Assembly (NCBI GenBank): GCA_017620915.1
Contig: JAFZSK010000015.1
Span: 1 to 41,711 of the forward strand
Origin: Clostridia bacterium
Lineage (GTDB): Bacteria > Bacillota > Clostridia > UBA1212 > UBA1255
Length of the DNA stretch: 41,711 nucleotides
Direction of reading: 5' to 3'
Shown: positions 17,674-41,711 of the stretch, piece after piece
How positions within the stretch are numbered: the first letter of the stretch is position 1
Layout: the number at the start of each line of letters is the position of its first letter
Program-made: the position numbers and the translations under genes
The notes under the pieces: model-generated
The model's input: only the letters and a program-made list of their open reading frames with translations
Told to the model about the DNA's origin: nothing
Database searches by the model: none

Positions 17674-18726
17674 CTATTCGTTTCGGATGTAGCGGGAGCC
17701 TCTCGACGCACCGATCCTTTTGATCTGACCTCCCTTAACCATCTTCGCGAGGACGGCCTCCACAGTCGTAGGACTGATATCCGGGTGAATAGAACAAATC
17801 TCTGCTTTAGATATGGGGACAATGCTGCCGAGTACAGTTGCTTCGATCCGCGCGGATTTGGTGACGCGTTTTCCGTGTACGACGGCAAACCGCCGGTCAA
17901 GTTCCTTATAGCACATATACAGCATTGACAGGAAGTTCTGCATAAACGGGAAATAGTCGTTGGTATTCGTATCCCACCCTGTTGACGAACGCTTAAGCGC
18001 GTCATAATACAGATCCTTATATTTGTTGATCAGCTCCTCAAAAGAGATATACTTTCCGGCATCGAACCCGTTCTTATACAGCAGCAATAGAGAAAGCAGC
18101 CTCGACATTCTTCCGTTTCCGTCTCTGAAAGGATGGATGCACAGGAAATCGAGAATCACACACGGGATCAGGAGCAACTGATTGATATTTGAATTCGAGC
18201 AGGCGTCAAGATATGCAAGCTCTAACTGCTCCATTGCCGCCGCAGTCTCATCGGCAGGAACGGGACGGAATCTTACTTTCCTGTTGCCGGACGAGTCTAC
18301 CTCGACAATAATGTTGTCCGCCTGTTTGAATCTGCCGGCGTCGGCGTCTCCGGACGGCGTCATCATAGTCTCGTGAAGAAAAAGGATATCCCGCACATTG
18401 AAACCAATATGCTCATATCCGGTATGGATCATATTCAGCGCGTCACGGTAACCGGCGATCTCCGCTTCATTTTGATTCAAAGGAGCGCTGCTGTTGTTTA
18501 CGATAGCCGCGATTCGCTGATCGCTCGTTACGATACCCTCGATGGCGTTGGAACTTTTGACCGACTGCACTTTCGCAACCGATTCCAGTTCCGTAAAAGT
18601 TGAATTGAACTGCGCTTTCCTGATACCTGCGGCCGTTTGCAGAGAATAGATCCCGCTCGTTATTTCTACAAGATTTGCCGGGATCAGTCCATTATCAAGA
18701 AAACTGTAATCGAACTTTCTCATCAT
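17674..18726 (-). CDS. Fic-family AMPylation protein with C-terminal winged helix
   Basis: Fic proteins transfer AMP from ATP to hydroxyl side chains of target proteins. The 350-residue protein has the full active-site loop HPFRDGNGR at 198-206 (His198 catalytic) and an N-terminal autoinhibitory helix motif SNAIEG at 59-64 with Glu63, the class II arrangement. Residues ~285-350 look like a winged helix-turn-helix (ISPTTVEAVLAKMVKGGQIKRIG). The ATG at 18726 follows AAAGGAG by 5 nt. Two palindromes cover and flank the promoter, so the C-terminal domain may repress its own gene. This is a self-regulating Fic by inference from the sequence; its protein target is unknown. Confidence 0.88.
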   Translation of the reverse strand: MMRKFDYSFLDNGLIPANLVEITSGIYSLQTAAGIRKAQFNSTFTELESVAKVQSVKSSNAIEGIVTSDQRIAAIVNNSSAPLNQNEAEIAGYRDALNMIHTGYEHIGFNVRDILFLHETMMTPSGDADAGRFKQADNIIVEVDSSGNRKVRFRPVPADETAAAMEQLELAYLDACSNSNINQLLLIPCVILDFLCIHPFRDGNGRMSRLLSLLLLYKNGFDAGKYISFEELINKYKDLYYDALKRSSTGWDTNTNDYFPFMQNFLSMLYMCYKELDRRFAVVHGKRVTKSARIEATVLGSIVPISKAEICSIHPDISPTTVEAVLAKMVKGGQIKRIGASRGSRYIRNE

Positions 18727-18736
18727 TGCATCTCCT

Positions 18737-18776
18737 TTCTGCATATAATTATACCATTTTATATGCAGAAAATCAA
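18737..18776 (-). promoter_or_regulatory. fic promoter with overlapping palindromic operator
   Basis: On the minus strand TTGATT (18771-18776) and TATAAT (18748-18753) are 17 nt apart. A perfect 12-bp inverted repeat, TTCTGCATATAA (18737-18748) and TTATATGCAGAA (18759-18770), covers the spacer and the -10, so a protein bound to it would block RNA polymerase. Confidence 0.7.
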
Positions 18777-18789
18777 GAGGTTGAAGGGA

Positions 18790-18826
18790 TTATCTGCATA
18801 TTTTCATGGATAGTATATGCAGATAA
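18790..18826. promoter_or_regulatory. Second palindrome upstream of fic
   Basis: A second perfect 12-bp inverted repeat, TTATCTGCATAT (18790-18801) and ATATGCAGATAA (18815-18826), shares the core TCTGCATAT with the operator over the promoter. The centres of the two palindromes are about 55 bp apart, roughly five helical turns, which would suit cooperative binding or looping. Confidence 0.6.
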
Positions 18827-34317: not shown

Positions 34318-37300
34318 TTATAGCAAAGGGCCTTTGCCGCCCCCAGGCTTCCGTTTCCCTTGCGGCTCGTTCGCTTTGCCGGGATCATCTGCAGGTGTAT
34401 TATCCGCCGCAGGCGTTTCCCGGTCGCTGGTCTCCCCCTGCAGCCAGTTCTTGTCGCCCAGTTTATTACGGAACGCCGCCGTTGCAGTCCCGCCGTTTGG
34501 TACGGTGACCACCACCTGCTCGGAGGTCTCGATATTATACCTCCAGCTCCAGCCGGTCAATTCCGTCACACGGTATTGACCAGGGTCAATGCATTTCACC
34601 GCGACCTGTCCGCTGCCGGATATAATGACCGTAAGCTTCCGGAAGGATTCGTCCTCACTGCCCTCATTGTCAATTCTTTCAACTTCAAATAGGAAATTGT
34701 CCGTCGTGGGTGCGCCAGTCACGGTATTTACGATCAGCAGTTCTCCCACGGTCAGGCTCCGGTTCGTGATATCGTAGCCCGTCTCGCTGTAGATTGCCTC
34801 ATAACCTTCAGGAACCTCTTCTTCTATCTCGATATCATCGTACGAAACTGTACTCTGCTCCCCGTTTTCTTCCACGTTTGCGATGTCGTTCAGCGGGATG
34901 TCCAGTGACCACTTCCAGTCGTCCTCCGCGGTGACCGTCACCGGCGAACCGGTGATCTCCGTTCTGTTGCCGTCTTTATCCTTGGCATACACGTGGATCT
35001 TGATCTCCTCGGGACGGTCCGCCTCATTGTCGCCTTCCCAGTACTTGGTGCTGCTGACGGAATCCGGCGCGTCTCCGCTGTGGAACTTGAGATTGATCAC
35101 GTTGCAGGTCAGTTCGTAATCCTCGTCGATGCCCGGGTAGCAGATGCCGTAGCCCTTGATGCTCCAGCATTCGTTTATCGGGTCGTACATCACCGGACAA
35201 TGGATATTCGGAATGCCCAGATATTTGATTACGGCGTCAATGACGAGTTCCATCAGACCGGTAGTCAGTTCCGTGCCGGCGAAGTCCATCGGCACGCCGT
35301 ATGCGCCGTATTTTTTGACGCCCATCCAAGCCCACCATTCGGTCAACGGATTGTTCACGTCATCGTCCACTTCCGCAATAGCGACTCCGGTAGCAGTATA
35401 CTTTTTGACGAAAAAGTCTACCACTCCGCCTGCTACGGCACTTAGAAAACCTTTACCCAGGAGCATTTCGATTCCCTGGGTCACAGCATCATTAAACAGG
35501 CCGTCTTCGCCGCCGGGGATCGATGCCAGACTGATCTGATCGCCGTAGAGCACTGTTGCCACTGGCGTATAGATATTCAGTTCCTCTACCCCCGCAGCCT
35601 CAGCATAATCATCCTGGACCTTGCTCACCAGCATCAGCCAGATCGACTCCGGCATATCATCTTTTTCAAAATTGAGCCAGCGTTTGAATATGCTGATCTC
35701 TAAAGTTGCGGTGTTGGTGATGTGCATCGTGTGGGTCTTGCTGTCGTGATCGTATTTTACGGTGTAGAGAGAATCATGTTTCTCAATTGTCTTTCCGATA
35801 CCGTCGGTATATTCTTCAATTTCCGCCTCGAACTGCGCCCGCGGGATAAACGTATTTTTAGCCTGCAGCGTCAGCCAGTCCACGGTATAGTCGGCGGTCC
35901 AGAGATTGCTCGGGTCGAAGATCTCCAGCATGTTCTTTATGTACTGTTTATCCAGGTCGAGCCAGTTGTGCACGATGCGCTCTTTGGCTGCTTCCAAGGG
36001 ATCTTCCTGTTCGCCGGGCTGCGGCTCATCTCCGTCCTCGTCATCATCGGGCTCGAGCAGGCGGACGCGGTAATTGTACTGTACAAAAGTACCGTTCTCA
36101 TTGACGTAACCGATCGGGACCGATTTAAAATCGCCTTTCCAGTTGCAGGCCGGGTCTACCGTGATGATCTCCACTATTTTCCAGGAGAATTTGCCCTCCT
36201 GCCGCTGGAGCGCTACGTCGATCTCCGGAGTGCGGTCCTTGTCCCACATGTCTATATCCCAGCTAACGACAACGTGGTACACCTTGCCCTTCTGGTTGAC
36301 GATCCGGGTGTGAGCTGAGCCTTCGGCACGGGTATACGTGACTAAAAAGCCGGTATCCGTCCCGCCTACATCAAAGATGGCGGTGGGAATGTCGCTGGGC
36401 TCGATGTCGTCATTCGGGTCATCGTTCGGGTCGAGGACGATCATCCCGTCCTTATCCAGTTCGCGCACGCGATAGTCGTCAATGCTGCCCGCGCCTCCGC
36501 CGAAATCGGCAACACGGTCAAAGCTGCCGTACCAGTTGTTCTGCTCGTTCAGCGTGAGTCGATTTATCTCAGTCCAGCCGTTGCCCGCACGGTGCTGAAG
36601 CACCACGACAACACTTTCCGGTTTCGTAGGAGCCGGTGCTTCGCCGCCCTGCTCCCCTTCGCCTCCGTCGTTTTCCGGCTCATTCTCCAGCCAGACTTTT
36701 GAAACGGTGAAGAAACCGTCCTGGGTGTTGACGATCACAAAATTGCCGTTTGCGTCGCGTTTGTAGCTGACCGTAAATCCCGCGTGCGCTTCCCCTTGAG
36801 GAACGTCGCGTTCCCGGCAGCGGAAATGCGGCGATGTACCGGGGACAAAGTCCTTGTCGGTCGGCAGCAGCAGCAGTCTGCCGTCCTGACCGTCACCGGC
36901 GCCCGGATCGACCATCGTAGACTCATATGCAGTGAATTCCCGCTTGTCGATCCATTCCCGCACACGGTAATCATCTTCGTTAAAGTTCTCGGTGATCGGG
37001 ACCGACTGGAAAGGCATTGCGCTCCAGGAGTGTGCCGCGTCCAGCGAGATCGATTCCACATCCGTCCAGGTCTCCGTTCCGTCGTCGTTGACGGTACGCT
37101 TCTGCAGGACCGCATCGACAGAAGCGATCCGTTCCGGCCACGGGCTGCCATCCGGCCCATTCCATTCTTTTTTCGCAGTAAATATAATACCGGAGCGGGT
37201 GTTGGTTATCACAGTGGAGCATTCAGCCGCGTCGACCTGAATGGATACATCGTATTCGTATATTTTGGTGATCCCGTTTTTAGTTACATAATACGTCGCC

Positions 37301-40300
37301 TTATCGTACGGCTGTTCAACATATACCGGCCGCGGATCGCCGGTCATATACACAGTATTTCCGTCTTTATCTACCTCGCGTACTTTGTATTCAGCCTCAT
37401 CCATCTGGCCTGCGAAAACGCCTTCCCAGTGATTTTGTTTATTCAGTTCCAGTGAATCTGCAACAGAACCGTTTTTGAACAGCCAGACCCGTACGCTGTC
37501 CGGCATATCGTTTTCATCTTCGATGCCTTCCCAGACTATCTTTGCGTGGTAATACTGGCCGGCGCTGTTGGTGATCGTTGTCCGGCTTTCAGCTGCCGCA
37601 AAAGCGTAAGAGACCCGGTACGTCATATCCATATCCACGTCGGTCCAGGGCTGTATACTGAACACCGCGGAGGGATCCTGGCCGCCGCCTTCGTCAGCAC
37701 TGTCAAGAACAACGCTGCCGTCCTTGCTCAGTTCCCGCACACGATATTCGCCGTCCATGCCTTCTGTTTCGGGCAGCGGTTCAAACGGGGCCGTCCAGTC
37801 ATTGTCCGCGTTCAATTCTACGGTGTCAACCGTCTCCCACACCCCGTTCACGCGGTGCTGCAATACCGCCGAAACGCTGTCCGGCTTGTATCTGGATTGA
37901 GGAATATCCCAGTTGACTTTCGCCGAATAAATGCGCGCCTTGCCGTTTGTGAGCTGTACGATCCCGCTGCCGCTGTGCAGCGCTTCGAGCTGCGCCTGAG
38001 AAAGACCCAGCGCCGCCGGATCTCTCAAATTGAGCGTCACGCACCCGGCGTAATTCTCACCCGCCAGCGCCAACGGGCCGCCGGGGATATTTGTGAGCTG
38101 CCAGCCGCCGCATACGAACCCTTCGGGGATCTGTTCGGCAAGCGTCAATATACTGACTTCCGTGACCGGTATCTTTGAGCTCCAACCGTTCGCCGCAGTG
38201 AGAATAACTGAACCGTTAGTGATTTTTCCGGCGGTATACTCGTTCCGGTAATCGACCTGTACGGACGCGGGCAACGCGGCGCCTTCGGGCCAGACCTTCT
38301 TTACGGTTATGTCAAAAGACTGTACCCAGCGGGCATAAACTACCGTGTTCCGGACTATGGGAGCGTCAAAATCAAAGCGCGTGGCAAATGTATTGTCCGT
38401 ATACCAGTCGTCAAAAAGCCACCCTTCCGCTTCGGGATCCTCCGGCCGTTCGGCCTTTTGACCCCGGGTCACGATCTGAGTTGCCGGTGCGATACCGTGT
38501 CCGTTCATCTCAAAAGTGACCGTGCATTCGCCCGGCTCAATCTTGGCATAGGCATGGCTGGTCGCGGCCGCGGCGCCGGCAGCGCCGCCGTAAACGACCG
38601 TCGTTGCGCCGACCGTCCCGTCGTCGTTGAGATCCGCATATGTGGTTTTGGAATATTCGTAAACGCTTACGTCTCCGTCTTCGTCGCCGTCGTTGCCTTT
38701 GCCGATGGCGTGCGCAGTATTCATACCGGAGGTCGCAACTACCGTGCCGCCGTTGATAGTGATCGTCTGGCCGGAATGACCGTCGCCGCCGCCGATGCCC
38801 GCGCCGCCCCAGTCGCCCGATTGCAGAAAGCCCAGCAGCAGCGCACCGACAAGTATTCCGGCATCGAGGGATTCCGGCGTATTCATGTCGCTGTAATACT
38901 CGGCATTATTGTAGATATCCACTGCCGCGTCGAACCAGTCTTTTGAATATTTGCCGCCTACCGCGAATACATATCCGTCATTTATGGTGACCGTGCCGCT
39001 GTCGCCGTCGTTGCCGCCGCCGATGCCCGCACCTTTCATATATGACACAGCAGTTACTCTGCCGCCGTTGATGGTGATATTGCCGCCGTTTCCGGTGCCG
39101 CCCATATCATTGCTGCCGCCGCCGCCGATGCCCGCGCCATTGTAACTGGTCGCAACAACATTTCCGTCTGAAATAATGATCGTTCCGCCGGCATGACCGC
39201 CGTTGCTGCCGTAGATGTCATAACCGCCGCCGCCGATGCCGGCACCGTCATATCCTTCCGCCAGAACAGTGCCGCCGGTAATAGTGATTATTCCGCCCTG
39301 TTCCTTACCGTCACCGGCGCCGATACCGGTACCGGACTTGCTGAAAGCGTTGGTCCCTTTAACTTTAAAATGATACGCATATACTGAACCGTTGGTGATC
39401 GTGATGTCCCCGTTGGCACCGTCATAGCCGCCGCCGATACCCGAACCGCCGCCTCCGCCGCCTCTCGCCTCAACGTACCCGCCGTTGATCTCGATCGCAC
39501 CGGCCTGATAATCCGGGTTTGCGCCGGTGCCGATACCCGCGCCGCCGGTTACAGCCAGCGCGTATACCGTGCCGCCGTTGATAGTGACCTTGCCGTTGAC
39601 GCCGCCGGTGCCGCTTATTAAGGTCTCGCCGAGAGCTTTATCGTATCCGCCGCCGATCGCGGCCGCGCGCAGTCCGCCGTATGCCGTCACGGTACCGCCG
39701 TTGATGGTAATGGTACCGCAGTCTTTGTTGTAACCGCCCCGGTCCGACCCGCCGCCGATGCCGGCCGCTCTGTTGCCGACCGCGCCGCTCCAGATCTCAA
39801 TGCCGCTGTTGTGGGCATCGCCGCCGGGGATGGCGGTGATGTTGCCGCCGTTGATCGTGAGGCTCGAAGCCGGGTCAACGTATATACCGGGGCCCATAAT
39901 GTCGTAAATATCTCCCCACGAGCCGCTGCTTGGCGCGTAATAACCGGTCGATTCCAGCCTGCCACTCCGTCCGCTCTGACACCAGATAGTGAGGGAGGAA
40001 TTCGGATTGATAGTTACGCCGCTGAGCGCCTTCAGCGTTGCCTCGTCGCAGAGCACCAGGTTTACGTCGCCGTTGATATCTATGATATTGTCCTGGAAAC
40101 TTTCTCTTACCGCATACCAGCCGGTAGTAAGAATGTCGCCGCTGATATTTTTACAATTATCCTGGATATGGATGCCGCCTTTTGCATCGATATATACGAT
40201 CGGTGCGCCATCCTCCTGGCATTCAATGGAATACCGGCAGAATTCGATCTCAAGTCCGGGAACCAGCAGGTTCGATACCGCTGAGGCGACCTGGTCAACG

Positions 40301-40755
40301 CACAATTCTTCGAAAGAGGCTTCATATGTCAGCTGCTCATACGTATCGCAGCCGAGCAATTTGTACATGCAGGTGATCTCGATCGTCGCCGGCACTGAGT
40401 TGATCCTGGCCGGGACCCGCTTCAATTCCCAGAGGTCAATGCCATAACCGCCCATGGGGAAACGCCCCAGCGAGTTGCCGCCGGAATCCCGGACCGTTAC
40501 CACCATGTCATAATAGTCCGCAAAAGTTTCGCCGATGGGCTGGAACGTCATAAGGTATTTACCCGCTCTGGCCGGACCCGCCCGGTTGCCGGAGTCGAGA
40601 AGCATGTCTGCCGCCGGCAGCTGCTGCGGTTCCGCCTGCGGCACTTCCGCGGCATGAACAGTGCGCCGCGCATCATTATTATTCCGCACAACAGCGGGGA
40701 TACTGTTGATACACAGCAAAAGCGCGAGCAGCAGAGATGTCAATCTATTTCTCAT
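34318..40755 (-). CDS. Giant secreted surface protein: beta-helix, InlB repeat and Cna_B-like stalk
   Basis: The 2,145-residue protein has a signal peptide (first ~23-35 residues, MRNRLTSLLLALLLCINSIP), a beta-rich region (~45-245), and a right-handed beta-helix (~247-722) with about ten Gly-rich turns of the type GAGIGGG plus TITINGGTV. An InlB/Listeria-Bacteroides repeat (~742-812) follows, then a chain of Cna_B-like domains (~815-2000) and a final prealbumin-like domain (~2003-2100). The Cna_B series shows repeated Lys (KVW/KKEW), Glu (YRVRE) and Asn (ITN/IVN) residues that could form isopeptide bonds. The tail (EPQGKRKPGGGKGPLL) has no LPxTG and no membrane helix, so the mode of attachment is unclear. 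It is likely an adhesin, by inference from its architecture. Confidence 0.82.
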   Translation of the reverse strand: MRNRLTSLLLALLLCINSIPAVVRNNNDARRTVHAAEVPQAEPQQLPAADMLLDSGNRAGPARAGKYLMTFQPIGETFADYYDMVVTVRDSGGNSLGRFPMGGYGIDLWELKRVPARINSVPATIEITCMYKLLGCDTYEQLTYEASFEELCVDQVASAVSNLLVPGLEIEFCRYSIECQEDGAPIVYIDAKGGIHIQDNCKNISGDILTTGWYAVRESFQDNIIDINGDVNLVLCDEATLKALSGVTINPNSSLTIWCQSGRSGRLESTGYYAPSSGSWGDIYDIMGPGIYVDPASSLTINGGNITAIPGGDAHNSGIEIWSGAVGNRAAGIGGGSDRGGYNKDCGTITINGGTVTAYGGLRAAAIGGGYDKALGETLISGTGGVNGKVTINGGTVYALAVTGGAGIGTGANPDYQAGAIEINGGYVEARGGGGGGSGIGGGYDGANGDITITNGSVYAYHFKVKGTNAFSKSGTGIGAGDGKEQGGIITITGGTVLAEGYDGAGIGGGGYDIYGSNGGHAGGTIIISDGNVVATSYNGAGIGGGGSNDMGGTGNGGNITINGGRVTAVSYMKGAGIGGGNDGDSGTVTINDGYVFAVGGKYSKDWFDAAVDIYNNAEYYSDMNTPESLDAGILVGALLLGFLQSGDWGGAGIGGGDGHSGQTITINGGTVVATSGMNTAHAIGKGNDGDEDGDVSVYEYSKTTYADLNDDGTVGATTVVYGGAAGAAAATSHAYAKIEPGECTVTFEMNGHGIAPATQIVTRGQKAERPEDPEAEGWLFDDWYTDNTFATRFDFDAPIVRNTVVYARWVQSFDITVKKVWPEGAALPASVQVDYRNEYTAGKITNGSVILTAANGWSSKIPVTEVSILTLAEQIPEGFVCGGWQLTNIPGGPLALAGENYAGCVTLNLRDPAALGLSQAQLEALHSGSGIVQLTNGKARIYSAKVNWDIPQSRYKPDSVSAVLQHRVNGVWETVDTVELNADNDWTAPFEPLPETEGMDGEYRVRELSKDGSVVLDSADEGGGQDPSAVFSIQPWTDVDMDMTYRVSYAFAAAESRTTITNSAGQYYHAKIVWEGIEDENDMPDSVRVWLFKNGSVADSLELNKQNHWEGVFAGQMDEAEYKVREVDKDGNTVYMTGDPRPVYVEQPYDKATYYVTKNGITKIYEYDVSIQVDAAECSTVITNTRSGIIFTAKKEWNGPDGSPWPERIASVDAVLQKRTVNDDGTETWTDVESISLDAAHSWSAMPFQSVPITENFNEDDYRVREWIDKREFTAYESTMVDPGAGDGQDGRLLLLPTDKDFVPGTSPHFRCRERDVPQGEAHAGFTVSYKRDANGNFVIVNTQDGFFTVSKVWLENEPENDGGEGEQGGEAPAPTKPESVVVVLQHRAGNGWTEINRLTLNEQNNWYGSFDRVADFGGGAGSIDDYRVRELDKDGMIVLDPNDDPNDDIEPSDIPTAIFDVGGTDTGFLVTYTRAEGSAHTRIVNQKGKVYHVVVSWDIDMWDKDRTPEIDVALQRQEGKFSWKIVEIITVDPACNWKGDFKSVPIGYVNENGTFVQYNYRVRLLEPDDDEDGDEPQPGEQEDPLEAAKERIVHNWLDLDKQYIKNMLEIFDPSNLWTADYTVDWLTLQAKNTFIPRAQFEAEIEEYTDGIGKTIEKHDSLYTVKYDHDSKTHTMHITNTATLEISIFKRWLNFEKDDMPESIWLMLVSKVQDDYAEAAGVEELNIYTPVATVLYGDQISLASIPGGEDGLFNDAVTQGIEMLLGKGFLSAVAGGVVDFFVKKYTATGVAIAEVDDDVNNPLTEWWAWMGVKKYGAYGVPMDFAGTELTTGLMELVIDAVIKYLGIPNIHCPVMYDPINECWSIKGYGICYPGIDEDYELTCNVINLKFHSGDAPDSVSSTKYWEGDNEADRPEEIKIHVYAKDKDGNRTEITGSPVTVTAEDDWKWSLDIPLNDIANVEENGEQSTVSYDDIEIEEEVPEGYEAIYSETGYDITNRSLTVGELLIVNTVTGAPTTDNFLFEVERIDNEGSEDESFRKLTVIISGSGQVAVKCIDPGQYRVTELTGWSWRYNIETSEQVVVTVPNGGTATAAFRNKLGDKNWLQGETSDRETPAADNTPADDPGKANEPQGKRKPGGGKGPLL

Positions 40756-40828
40756 CGAACGTTCCTCATTTTGTCAAATCCATATCAGGCGATTGGTCAG
40801 ATGCGGCACTGCATCCTAAACCAATATA

Positions 40829-40837
40829 ATTATAACA
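40829..40837 (-). promoter_or_regulatory. Extended -10 promoter of the giant surface protein
   Basis: The minus strand carries TGTTATAAT, an extended -10 (TGnTATAAT), about 75 nt upstream of the ATG at 40755. A consensus -35 is not seen. GAGGA lies 7 nt before the start codon. Confidence 0.5.
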
Positions 40838-40868
40838 TATCTATACAGTAAATAAAAGACTTATATAT

Positions 40869-41315
40869 GGCTCTACTCCCGAAATCGTAATGACATAGAG
40901 GGCGCATGCTTCGCGGCAGATTACGCTCGCATGGAAGGACAATATCAACATTTCATTTTAATGCGTTTCCTCTGTAAAAAATAAACAAAAACTCATGCTA
41001 AAGGCATTCAATACTTTGCTGCTGTTTATAGCCCTTCTTCAAAGAAGTAAGACAAATGTGCTCAAACGAATATATTTGTCTTGCATTCTCGTTCATTTTA
41101 GCGGCTAATCAGTGCAACAAATAAGACAGATTTCTTCAAATGAGTAGAATTGTCTGATTTTGTCCCCTCTCAATCCTCAAAATGTAAGACAATATCACTT
41201 GAGCGAACGCATTTGTCTTACTTTCCAAAGTTTACACAGTTCACAGATGCAGCCAGAAACATAGTGTACCGCCGGTCGCGAGACTGTTTTATATTACGAT
41301 TTTGGGAGTAGAGCC
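40869..41315. mobile_element. 447-bp inverted-repeat element (MITE-like), no transposase
   Basis: The region begins GGCTCTACTCCCGAAATCGTAAT and ends with its inverse with one mismatch, so the terminal inverted repeats are at least 22 bp. No transposase frame is inside, only frames of up to ~32 codons. The flanks TTATATAT and TTAATAAT agree at 5 of 8 positions, possibly a worn 8-bp target duplication. The GGCTCT ends resemble ISL3-family inverted repeats, so it may be a non-autonomous derivative of such an element; the family link is an inference. The gap 40756-41429 otherwise holds only the promoter of the giant gene and the tRNA terminator. Confidence 0.75.
41048..41220. repeat. Three spaced dyads inside the inverted-repeat element
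   Basis: Three 35-36 bp units (41048-41082, 41122-41157, 41185-41220) each start with TAAGACA and end with TGTCTT/TGTCTTA, so each is an imperfect palindrome. They are 74 and 63 bp apart. They look like protein-binding sites or RNA hairpins rather than CRISPR repeats. Confidence 0.7.
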
Positions 41316-41338
41316 TTAATAATAGCCGGTCGATCCAC

Positions 41339-41396
41339 AAAAAAAGGACTGTTCGATCTTCTCAAATAAAACTGAGCGAATCAAACAGTCCCTTTT
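41339..41396 (-). terminator. Intrinsic terminator of tRNA-Pro
   Basis: A hairpin of about 19 bp (GGACTGTTTGATTCGCTCA paired with a strand differing at four positions) is followed on the minus strand by a run of seven T. It lies 33 nt behind tRNA-Pro. Confidence 0.85.
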
Positions 41397-41429
41397 CGCG
41401 GGCAGATCTTTTCAGATCTGACACCTGAG

Positions 41430-41505
41430 TCGGAGTGACCTGACTTGAACAGGCGACCTCTTGCACCCCAAGCAAGCACTCTAAGCCAAACTGAGCTACA
41501 CCCCG
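41430..41505 (-). tRNA. tRNA-Pro (anticodon GGG)
   Basis: A full cloverleaf folds on the minus strand: acceptor CGGGGTG/CACTCCG, anticodon stem CTTGC/GCAAG around TTGGGGT (anticodon GGG), a standard T arm and discriminator A. CCA is not encoded. It reads CCC/CCU codons. Confidence 0.93.
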
Positions 41506-41518
41506 AAGCGCAGAACGT

Positions 41519-41547
41519 ATTATAGTCTTTTGATTTCCGTTTGTAAA
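41519..41547 (-). promoter_or_regulatory. Promoter of tRNA-Pro
   Basis: TTTACA (41542-41547) and TATAAT (41519-41524) on the minus strand are exactly 17 nt apart, 13 nt before the 5' end of the tRNA, close to the sigma-70 consensus. Confidence 0.75.
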
Positions 41548-41583
41548 GGACTTTTTTTGTCTTAACTCTTTCCTGTTTTCGTG

Positions 41584-41664
41584 AAGTAAATTCCCAAAGT
41601 AACTCCCACAGTAGGATTTGCGATGGGATTTACTTTGAGATGCTTTGTGTGGTTGAATTTACTT
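41584..41664. repeat. Iterated (A)TTTACTT motif before a plus-strand gene
   Basis: AAGTAAATTC (41584-41593) is the exact inverse of GAATTTACTT (41655-41664), and GGGATTTACTTT (41625-41636) is a third, near-matching copy in the middle. The copies lie within 110 nt upstream of the start at 41694 and could be binding sites for a regulator or for the product of that gene. Confidence 0.5.
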
Positions 41665-41693
41665 TAAGAAATTATTCTTAAGGAGGCCGTGTT

Positions 41694-41711
41694 ATGGCAA
41701 AAAAAACAAAC
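41694..41711 (+). CDS. Start of an unidentified gene (cut by the window edge)
   Basis: ATG at 41694 follows a perfect AAGGAGG ribosome site (41680-41686) with 7 nt spacing. Only MAKKTN is encoded before the sequence ends, so the function is unknown. The iterated motif at 41584-41664 lies directly upstream. Confidence 0.6.

Follow-up and report, generated by a model that had tools for sequence, protein, structure and literature searches.

Arrays of operators or subsites bound by dimeric proteins, such as phage operators and resolvase res sites, consist of imperfect palindromes that share the same half-sites and lie whole helical turns apart, and their specificities differ between relatives. 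Among dispersed repeats, the BOX elements of Streptococcus are modular and intergenic, are dormant, and have a variable number of middle modules, and in S. suis, for instance, one kind of middle module occurs between differing end modules (PMC3049150). REP, BIME and REPIN sequences, with their RAYT proteins, are intergenic palindromes of 20–40 bp arranged in regular mosaics with conserved spacer motifs (PMC2817692, PMC3733652). In published ISL3 elements and an ISL3-driven MITE the ends read GGCTCTTCG and the duplications are 8 bp long (PMC11448079; PMC6305408), and MITEs of this family, for example one of 187 bp in Microcystis aeruginosa (PMC11448079), have terminal inverted repeats (TIR) starting with GGCTCT, are shorter than 500 bp, lack a transposase, and occur in the same organism group as an ISL3 transposase with the same ends. 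Here we describe an element that resembles each of these in part.

The window analysed is a stretch of 41,711 nucleotides from a Clostridia bacterium (contig JAFZSK010000015.1), toward the end of which an earlier note, made from the sequence alone, had placed a 447-bp inverted-repeat element (Table 1). Its termini proved to match in inverse orientation as described, with GGCTCTACTCCCGAAATCGTAAT at both ends in agreement over 22 of 23 bp, which is the form expected of ISL3 MITEs (TIR of roughly 15–40 bp starting GG(C/G)TCT). The outermost 12 bp, with one mismatch allowed, are expected 0.14 times in the window and were observed twice. No ORF of at least 60 aa lies within 40869-41315, and the reported absence of a transposase ORF thus stands. 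The element is probably a mosaic, since its left 130 bp resemble the end of a ATAAACAAAAA-type ISL3 MITE on contig C74; on the other side, the right segment together with the end of the cassette shows 83% identity over 78 bp to the one-dyad relic on C23. Comparison of the locus with congeners showed conservation restricted to the tRNA side. Two neighbouring features were also seen. A 2145-aa ORF (34318-40755), apparently a surface protein with CnaB-like repeats and a Gly-rich, beta-helix-like part by eye, adjoins the element. Almost identical copies of the last 129 bp of the contig (41583-41711) are present at C70, C64 and C17 of the same genome; the stretch runs into an ORF start (MAKKTN...) and looks like an IS end that broke the assembly.

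Table 1. Positions, strands and attributes of sequence features in and beside the 447-bp element.
Feature	Position	Strand	Remarks
Left TIR GGCTCTACTCCCGAAATCGTAAT, ISL3 type	40869..40891	+	Inverse match to right end; same 12-bp end seen at an ISL3 transposase in a congener
Left subterminal segment	40871..41000	+	~71% identity to end of ATAAACAAAAA-type ISL3 MITE, G000:C74
ATAAACAAAAA half-site, one copy	within 40871..41000		Lies in left subterminal segment
Three-dyad cassette	41034..41254	+	~221 bp; independent dispersed repeat in own genome
Dyad 1, GTAAGACAAA...TTTGTCTTGC	41047..41084	.	38 bp
Spacer motif TCTCGTTCATTTT	41087..41099	+	Genus-wide form TCTCGCTCATTTT; common to arrays with different arms
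Dyad 2, ATAAGACAGA...TTGTCTGAT	41121..41158	.	38 bp; starts 74 bp (7 turns) past start of dyad 1
Dyad 3, GTAAGACAAT...TTTGTCTTAC	41184..41221	.	38 bp; starts 63 bp (6 turns) past start of dyad 2
Right subterminal segment	41255..41292	+	Partly common to one-dyad relic G000:C23:14079-14156
Right TIR	41293..41315	-	Inverse match to left TIR over 22/23 bp
Isolated half-site TTTGTCTTAA	41556..41565	+	~50 bp upstream of tRNA-Pro (minus strand)

A search for further copies, proposed in the earlier note, recovered elements with the same TIR both in the organism's own genome (2.57 Mb in 121 contigs, 97% complete) and in congeners. Further TIR pairs lie at C23:5467-5895, C113:3734-4161 and C110 from 47633, and ISL3-type TIR were found in five of the seven genus genomes. 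The flanks of several copies gave a divided result: sister copies are bordered by 8-bp target duplications (ACTTGGAA and AAATACCG, each 8/8, and CAGAARCA, 7/8), with one extra base on one side of the duplication in all three cases, but the flanks of the window copy, TTATATAT and TTAATAAT, match at 5 of 8 positions and hence provide no clear target duplication. A full-length IS with matching ends was likewise only partly recovered. The 97% complete own assembly contains no ISL3 transposase, but contig C119 of congener G001 carries an ISL3 transposase gene (Pfam DDE_Tnp_ISL3, PF01610, E 6e-63) that stops 33 bp inside a GGCTCTACTCCC terminus (in longer form GGCTCTACTCCCATTTTCGT); as this contig ends within the gene, one end of the element is seen. 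Two other families were considered as the source of the TIR and rejected: in G006:C8 the TIR directly adjoins an IS30-like gene, other copies of which are without it, and in G004:C136 an assembly gap lies between a TIR and a nearby IS256 element, which appears to have ends of its own. The assignment draws on the same-TIR copies, the duplications at sister copies and the transposase-linked terminus in the congener; by these sequence comparisons the 447-bp element is a non-autonomous, non-coding ISL3-family mini-transposon (MITE), as the earlier note had proposed. It differs from described ISL3 MITEs in the missing transposase of its own assembly, in the extra base beside the duplication at three copies, and in its cargo of three long dyads, which are also found outside the MITE. 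The MITE itself is ordinary and of a known kind.

The dyads had been described as three regularly spaced units of 35–36 bp, each reading TAAGACA...TGTCTTA. Three are indeed present, but they are 38 bp long and unequally spaced (starts 74 and 63 bp apart), and only the third has exactly these arms; the closing arm is TGTCTTG in the first and TGTCTGA in the second. With the element as query against its own genome, we obtained 13 strong matches that covered the interior alone (41038-41254) at 70–80% identity and lacked the ISL3 TIR. One more copy came from another search, a further diverged copy lies at C58, and one-dyad relics lie at C12, C23 and C121. By its distribution, the three-dyad cassette is a dispersed repeat in its own right. 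A second TIR-bounded form of 328–339 bp was also identified: all twelve AGGGCTTACGCATGAAC ends in the genome sit at TAAGACA cassettes, and the C37 copy is flanked by a 10-bp duplication, CGCGTACCTC, by direct reading of its flanks. ISL3 transposition fails to explain the dispersal of the TAAGACA cassette because most copies lack the ISL3 TIR. The suggestion that the dyads are the ISL3 transposase's own binding sites was accordingly not borne out, given at least 14 further cassettes nearly always without the ISL3 TIR and ISL3 MITEs that bear arrays with quite different arms.

Fifteen cassette copies aligned over 219 columns with zero gaps. Pairwise identity among them was 95% in the six-base arm cores, 69% in the dyad centres and 74% in the spacers (permutation p <= 5e-5), and across 270 core pair positions there were 14 one-sided changes and one compensated change that kept the pairing. 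The cassette had no BLAST match in 57 relatives, although diverged forms may escape BLAST, and a search of 85,000 genomes for the exact two-dyad TAAGACA pattern matched only an unrelated CCGTCCCCTGTCTT repeat. Other repeats were encountered along the way: L078, in the uncultured Lachnospiraceae RUG14268, contains tandem AAAGACAGAGAACCGTCCCCTGTCTTT palindromes unrelated to the present arrays, and simple-sequence stretches such as GGCAAATGGCAAAGGGC (flanks of L013, L003 and L210) recur intergenically, often beside these elements. A CRISPR array was ruled out, as the dyad centres differ between units and the spacers repeat along with the dyads.

Arrays of the same construction with other arms are widespread in the genus. 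At least 15 arm sequences occur in tandem arrays in the own and congeneric genomes, with one to six or more dyads per array and an outer dyad length of 37–42 bp throughout (mostly 38–40). In other ISL3 MITEs of the own genome or congeners the arms read TTCAACGATTT (C23 and C113), GTCATAGCAA (beside the C23 element), ATAAACAAAAA (C91, C74 and G003), GACATACCAAA (G001) and GTCTAACAAAA (G003). Further families, with the TIR present or absent, are GTCAGCCACAA, GTTGACCGCAA, TGTAGCCGCAA, GGAGGCCGCAA, GCGGTATCCC and GACATAGCAAA in the own genome, and GTGGGACAAAA (G003), TTCAACAGAA (G001), ACGCCC and ATACATAAG (G002) and GTCATAGAGAA (G006) in congeners. Many of their spacers have TCTCGCTCATTTT in common, and arrays with other arms but the same geometry and phasing were found in at least five genus genomes. 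Three other genera of the family, sampled over 264 kb, yielded no arrays except for one unphased pair 39 bp apart; the remaining G009 rows of this sample were runs of N.

Comparison of families provides some evidence of how the arms change. Within a single tandem array (L127, in G002) the units switch from AAACGCCC/GGGCGTTT to AAATACAT/ATGTATTT while the spacer and much of the centre stay homologous, and three outer arms of the own genome, GTTGA, TGTAG and GGAGG, are found on the same inner CCGCAATTCC...TTGCGG. As these alignments read, arms change in pairs between families and are nearly frozen within the TAAGACA family. Such paired change would suit a dimeric protein of shifting specificity, and would equally suit selection on pairing. 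Whole units also appear to vary: two species (L079, G004:C2, and L082, G001:C117) share an ISL3 MITE in identical flanks, TTGCATAAAAGCCC, with one dyad against two, which suggests gain or loss of units at what is apparently one site.

We then considered the spacing of the dyads. Neighbouring dyads that share their arms lie 53, 63, 74, 84, 94-95, 105-106, 117, 126, 137, 147, 157, 168 and 178 bp apart from centre to centre, distances that are whole multiples of ~10.5 bp. A first phasing test on a hand-compiled list gave R = 0.92 at 10.45 bp. An automated test on all fetched loci, in which each combination of arm family and spacing class contributed one value and the dyad finder had no phase criterion, gave R = 0.87 at 10.45-10.5 bp (phase 0.01-0.06 turn, n = 30) and R = 0.40 at 11 bp; its p-value of about 1e-10 should be regarded as optimistic, given that spacing classes within one family may share descent. 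Three more arrays, which played no part in forming the hypothesis and came afterwards from a 223-kb unbiased random sample of the own genome, had spacings of 53, 53 and 85 bp, all in phase, and the array beside tRNA-Pro in G003 (105 and about 117 bp) was also in phase. A base-pair shuffle test on the dyads was excluded from the evidence as circular, the dyads having been chosen for palindromy. Elsewhere in the window, two dyads of ~38 bp (18735-18826; TTTCTGCATAT...ATATGCAGAAA and TTATCTGCATAT...ATATGCAGATAA) lie 54.5 bp, or 5.2 turns, apart, directly at and upstream of the start of a gene for a 356-aa protein with a Fic motif (HPFRDGNGR; 17674-18744, minus strand). Their geometry is array-like, and they are perhaps the operator of that gene.

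Little in the surroundings of the arrays points to a common target, or speaks for or against the regulatory relay that the earlier note had named as a possibility. The genes next to them showed no common function or orientation (orientations even, at 7/8/8/6); those tested are unrelated, including argininosuccinate synthase, malate dehydrogenase, SMC, MecA and type III pantothenate kinase, and no gene family accompanies the arrays among them. With neighbours so unrelated and orientations so even, the arrays are unlikely to serve simply as operators of one regulon. The stretch that the earlier note had seen near the tRNA gene, TTTGTCTTAA, is real, but it is a single half-site and probably there by chance, because half-sites elsewhere in the genome occur at background frequency, with neither avoidance nor excess. 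G003 has an array on the same side of tRNA-Pro (L255, on C28). Its arms read GTGGGACAAAA, and its GCTCAAAC centres resemble those of the window cassette; as the rest of the flank is unconserved, this array may have inserted independently. A viral origin, or a role as decoys for viral sites, was also rejected, the arms being absent from viral contigs or present at what we judged to be chance level.

Set against the described systems, these arrays resemble BOX elements and BIMEs in architecture and vary in the number of their tandem middle modules (one against two dyads in G004 and G001, and one to six or more elsewhere); unlike those of BOX, their middle modules are 38-bp dyads with arms that differ from array to array and a spacing quantised in helical turns. 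They differ from REP, BIME and REPIN in having neither a tetranucleotide tag nor an adjoining cognate RAYT, and in combining many arm families in one genome with whole-turn phasing. Unlike phage operators and res sites, they recur at many places in the chromosome without a gene for a cognate protein beside them. We found no description in the literature (open-licence papers) of such exchangeable arms and whole-turn spacing.

One explanation for these observations, and the one toward which we lean with limited confidence, is that the phased palindrome array carried by the MITE is a putative binding platform at the DNA level, laid out on one face of the helix. Each dyad would be a double-stranded binding site for a putative dimeric, sequence-specific protein, and whole-turn spacing would place the bound dimers on one helix face, allowing cooperative binding or one joint complex. 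Each arm family would have its own protein variant with a specificity to match, and arrays would spread when they lie inside a MITE, of the ISL3 type here and of the AGGGCTTACGCATGAAC type for a subfamily. Conserved arms and the lack of indels are what selection on binding would be expected to produce, be it through a benefit to the host or through the spread of the element itself, and the phasing and lack of indels together argue for double-stranded DNA. This interpretation must be made cautiously, however: more than ten arm families would call for as many protein specificities, and the paired changes between families are as compatible with hairpin pairing as with recognition by a dimer. A broader version, in which a family of DNA-binding proteins of many specificities and matching helically phased arrays, dispersed by MITEs, form a diversifying recognition system whose arms change in concert across each array, seems to us improbable, if worth stating.

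One may postulate instead that self-complementarity itself is selected, as a DNA cruciform or as transcribed RNA hairpins, so that arms are free to drift as long as both agree. We regard this as rather unlikely, although the paired change of arms between families around a homologous centre and spacer is what it would produce, and stem-loops are predicted for transcripts of BOX repeats (PMC3049150). Folding of single dyads as RNA, another check proposed in the earlier note, was largely favourable to it, as four of the five tested fold well (z of -5.9, -2.6, -4.3 and -5.9), but shuffled sequences fold as well as dyad 2 of the window. The TAAGACA arms, moreover, are almost frozen, with one-sided changes far outnumbering the one compensated change, whereas pairing alone would allow many compensated changes; the RNAalifold covariation term is close to zero (0.5 kcal/mol), with two of the three hairpins broken, and there is no Rfam match in 40600-41711 besides the tRNA. 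The absent covariation and Rfam match also argue against a structured non-coding RNA. Finally, the spacing follows the 10.5-bp period of B-DNA and not one of 11 bp, and single-stranded RNA hairpins need no helical phasing.

An alternative scenario that we consider doubtful is a purely selfish repeat, in which the dyads are sites for an enzyme that moves the cassette, one such enzyme per arm family, and arm conservation reflects nothing but the spread of copies whose sites are intact, with no role for the host. The cassette is private to the species and is dispersed without preference for genes or orientation, one subfamily is bounded by its own TIR and has one 10-bp duplication, and dyad number differs between genomes at apparently one site, all of which are consistent with this view. 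Nevertheless, no autonomous element combining the dyads with a transposase was found, and the dyads are internal and can be lost, as the one-dyad relics L015, L018 and L027 show, whereas transposases normally act at element ends. We also know of no need for whole-turn spacing of internal sites in cut-and-paste transposition. That the dyads are incidental to one ordinary ISL3 MITE is very unlikely: its TIR, size and target duplications are typical of such elements, yet the cassette is found at 14 or more places without the MITE, and arrays with other arms share its geometry and phasing in at least five genus genomes. We give still less credence to REP-like palindromes mobilised by Y1 transposases (PF01797), even though the dyads fall within the 20–40 bp of REP palindromes and Y1 transposases are encoded in five of the seven genus genomes, because none of the ten Y1 loci scanned bears these dyads, two of the three seen in full are flanked by abundant, unrelated GGGGACAG repeats, and the dyads have neither a GTAG-type tag nor BIME-style alternation. 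The GGGGACAG(A/G) repeats around Y1 (RAYT-like) genes of the genus (L148, L149 and others) form a separate family that is perhaps itself mobilised by Y1.

The genus thus holds many unrelated-looking palindrome families with one geometry, whole-turn spacing and paired change of arms. For intergenic repeats, the function of which usually cannot be tested, a pattern of this kind makes a prediction, namely an arm-specific protein bound along one face of the helix. If the diversifying recognition system that we consider improbable did exist, it would be a repeat-based system, for chromosome organisation, silencing or competition among mobile elements, of a kind not described before. If the binding platform that we favour is correct, mobile elements would be able to distribute binding sites of changing specificity through a genome.
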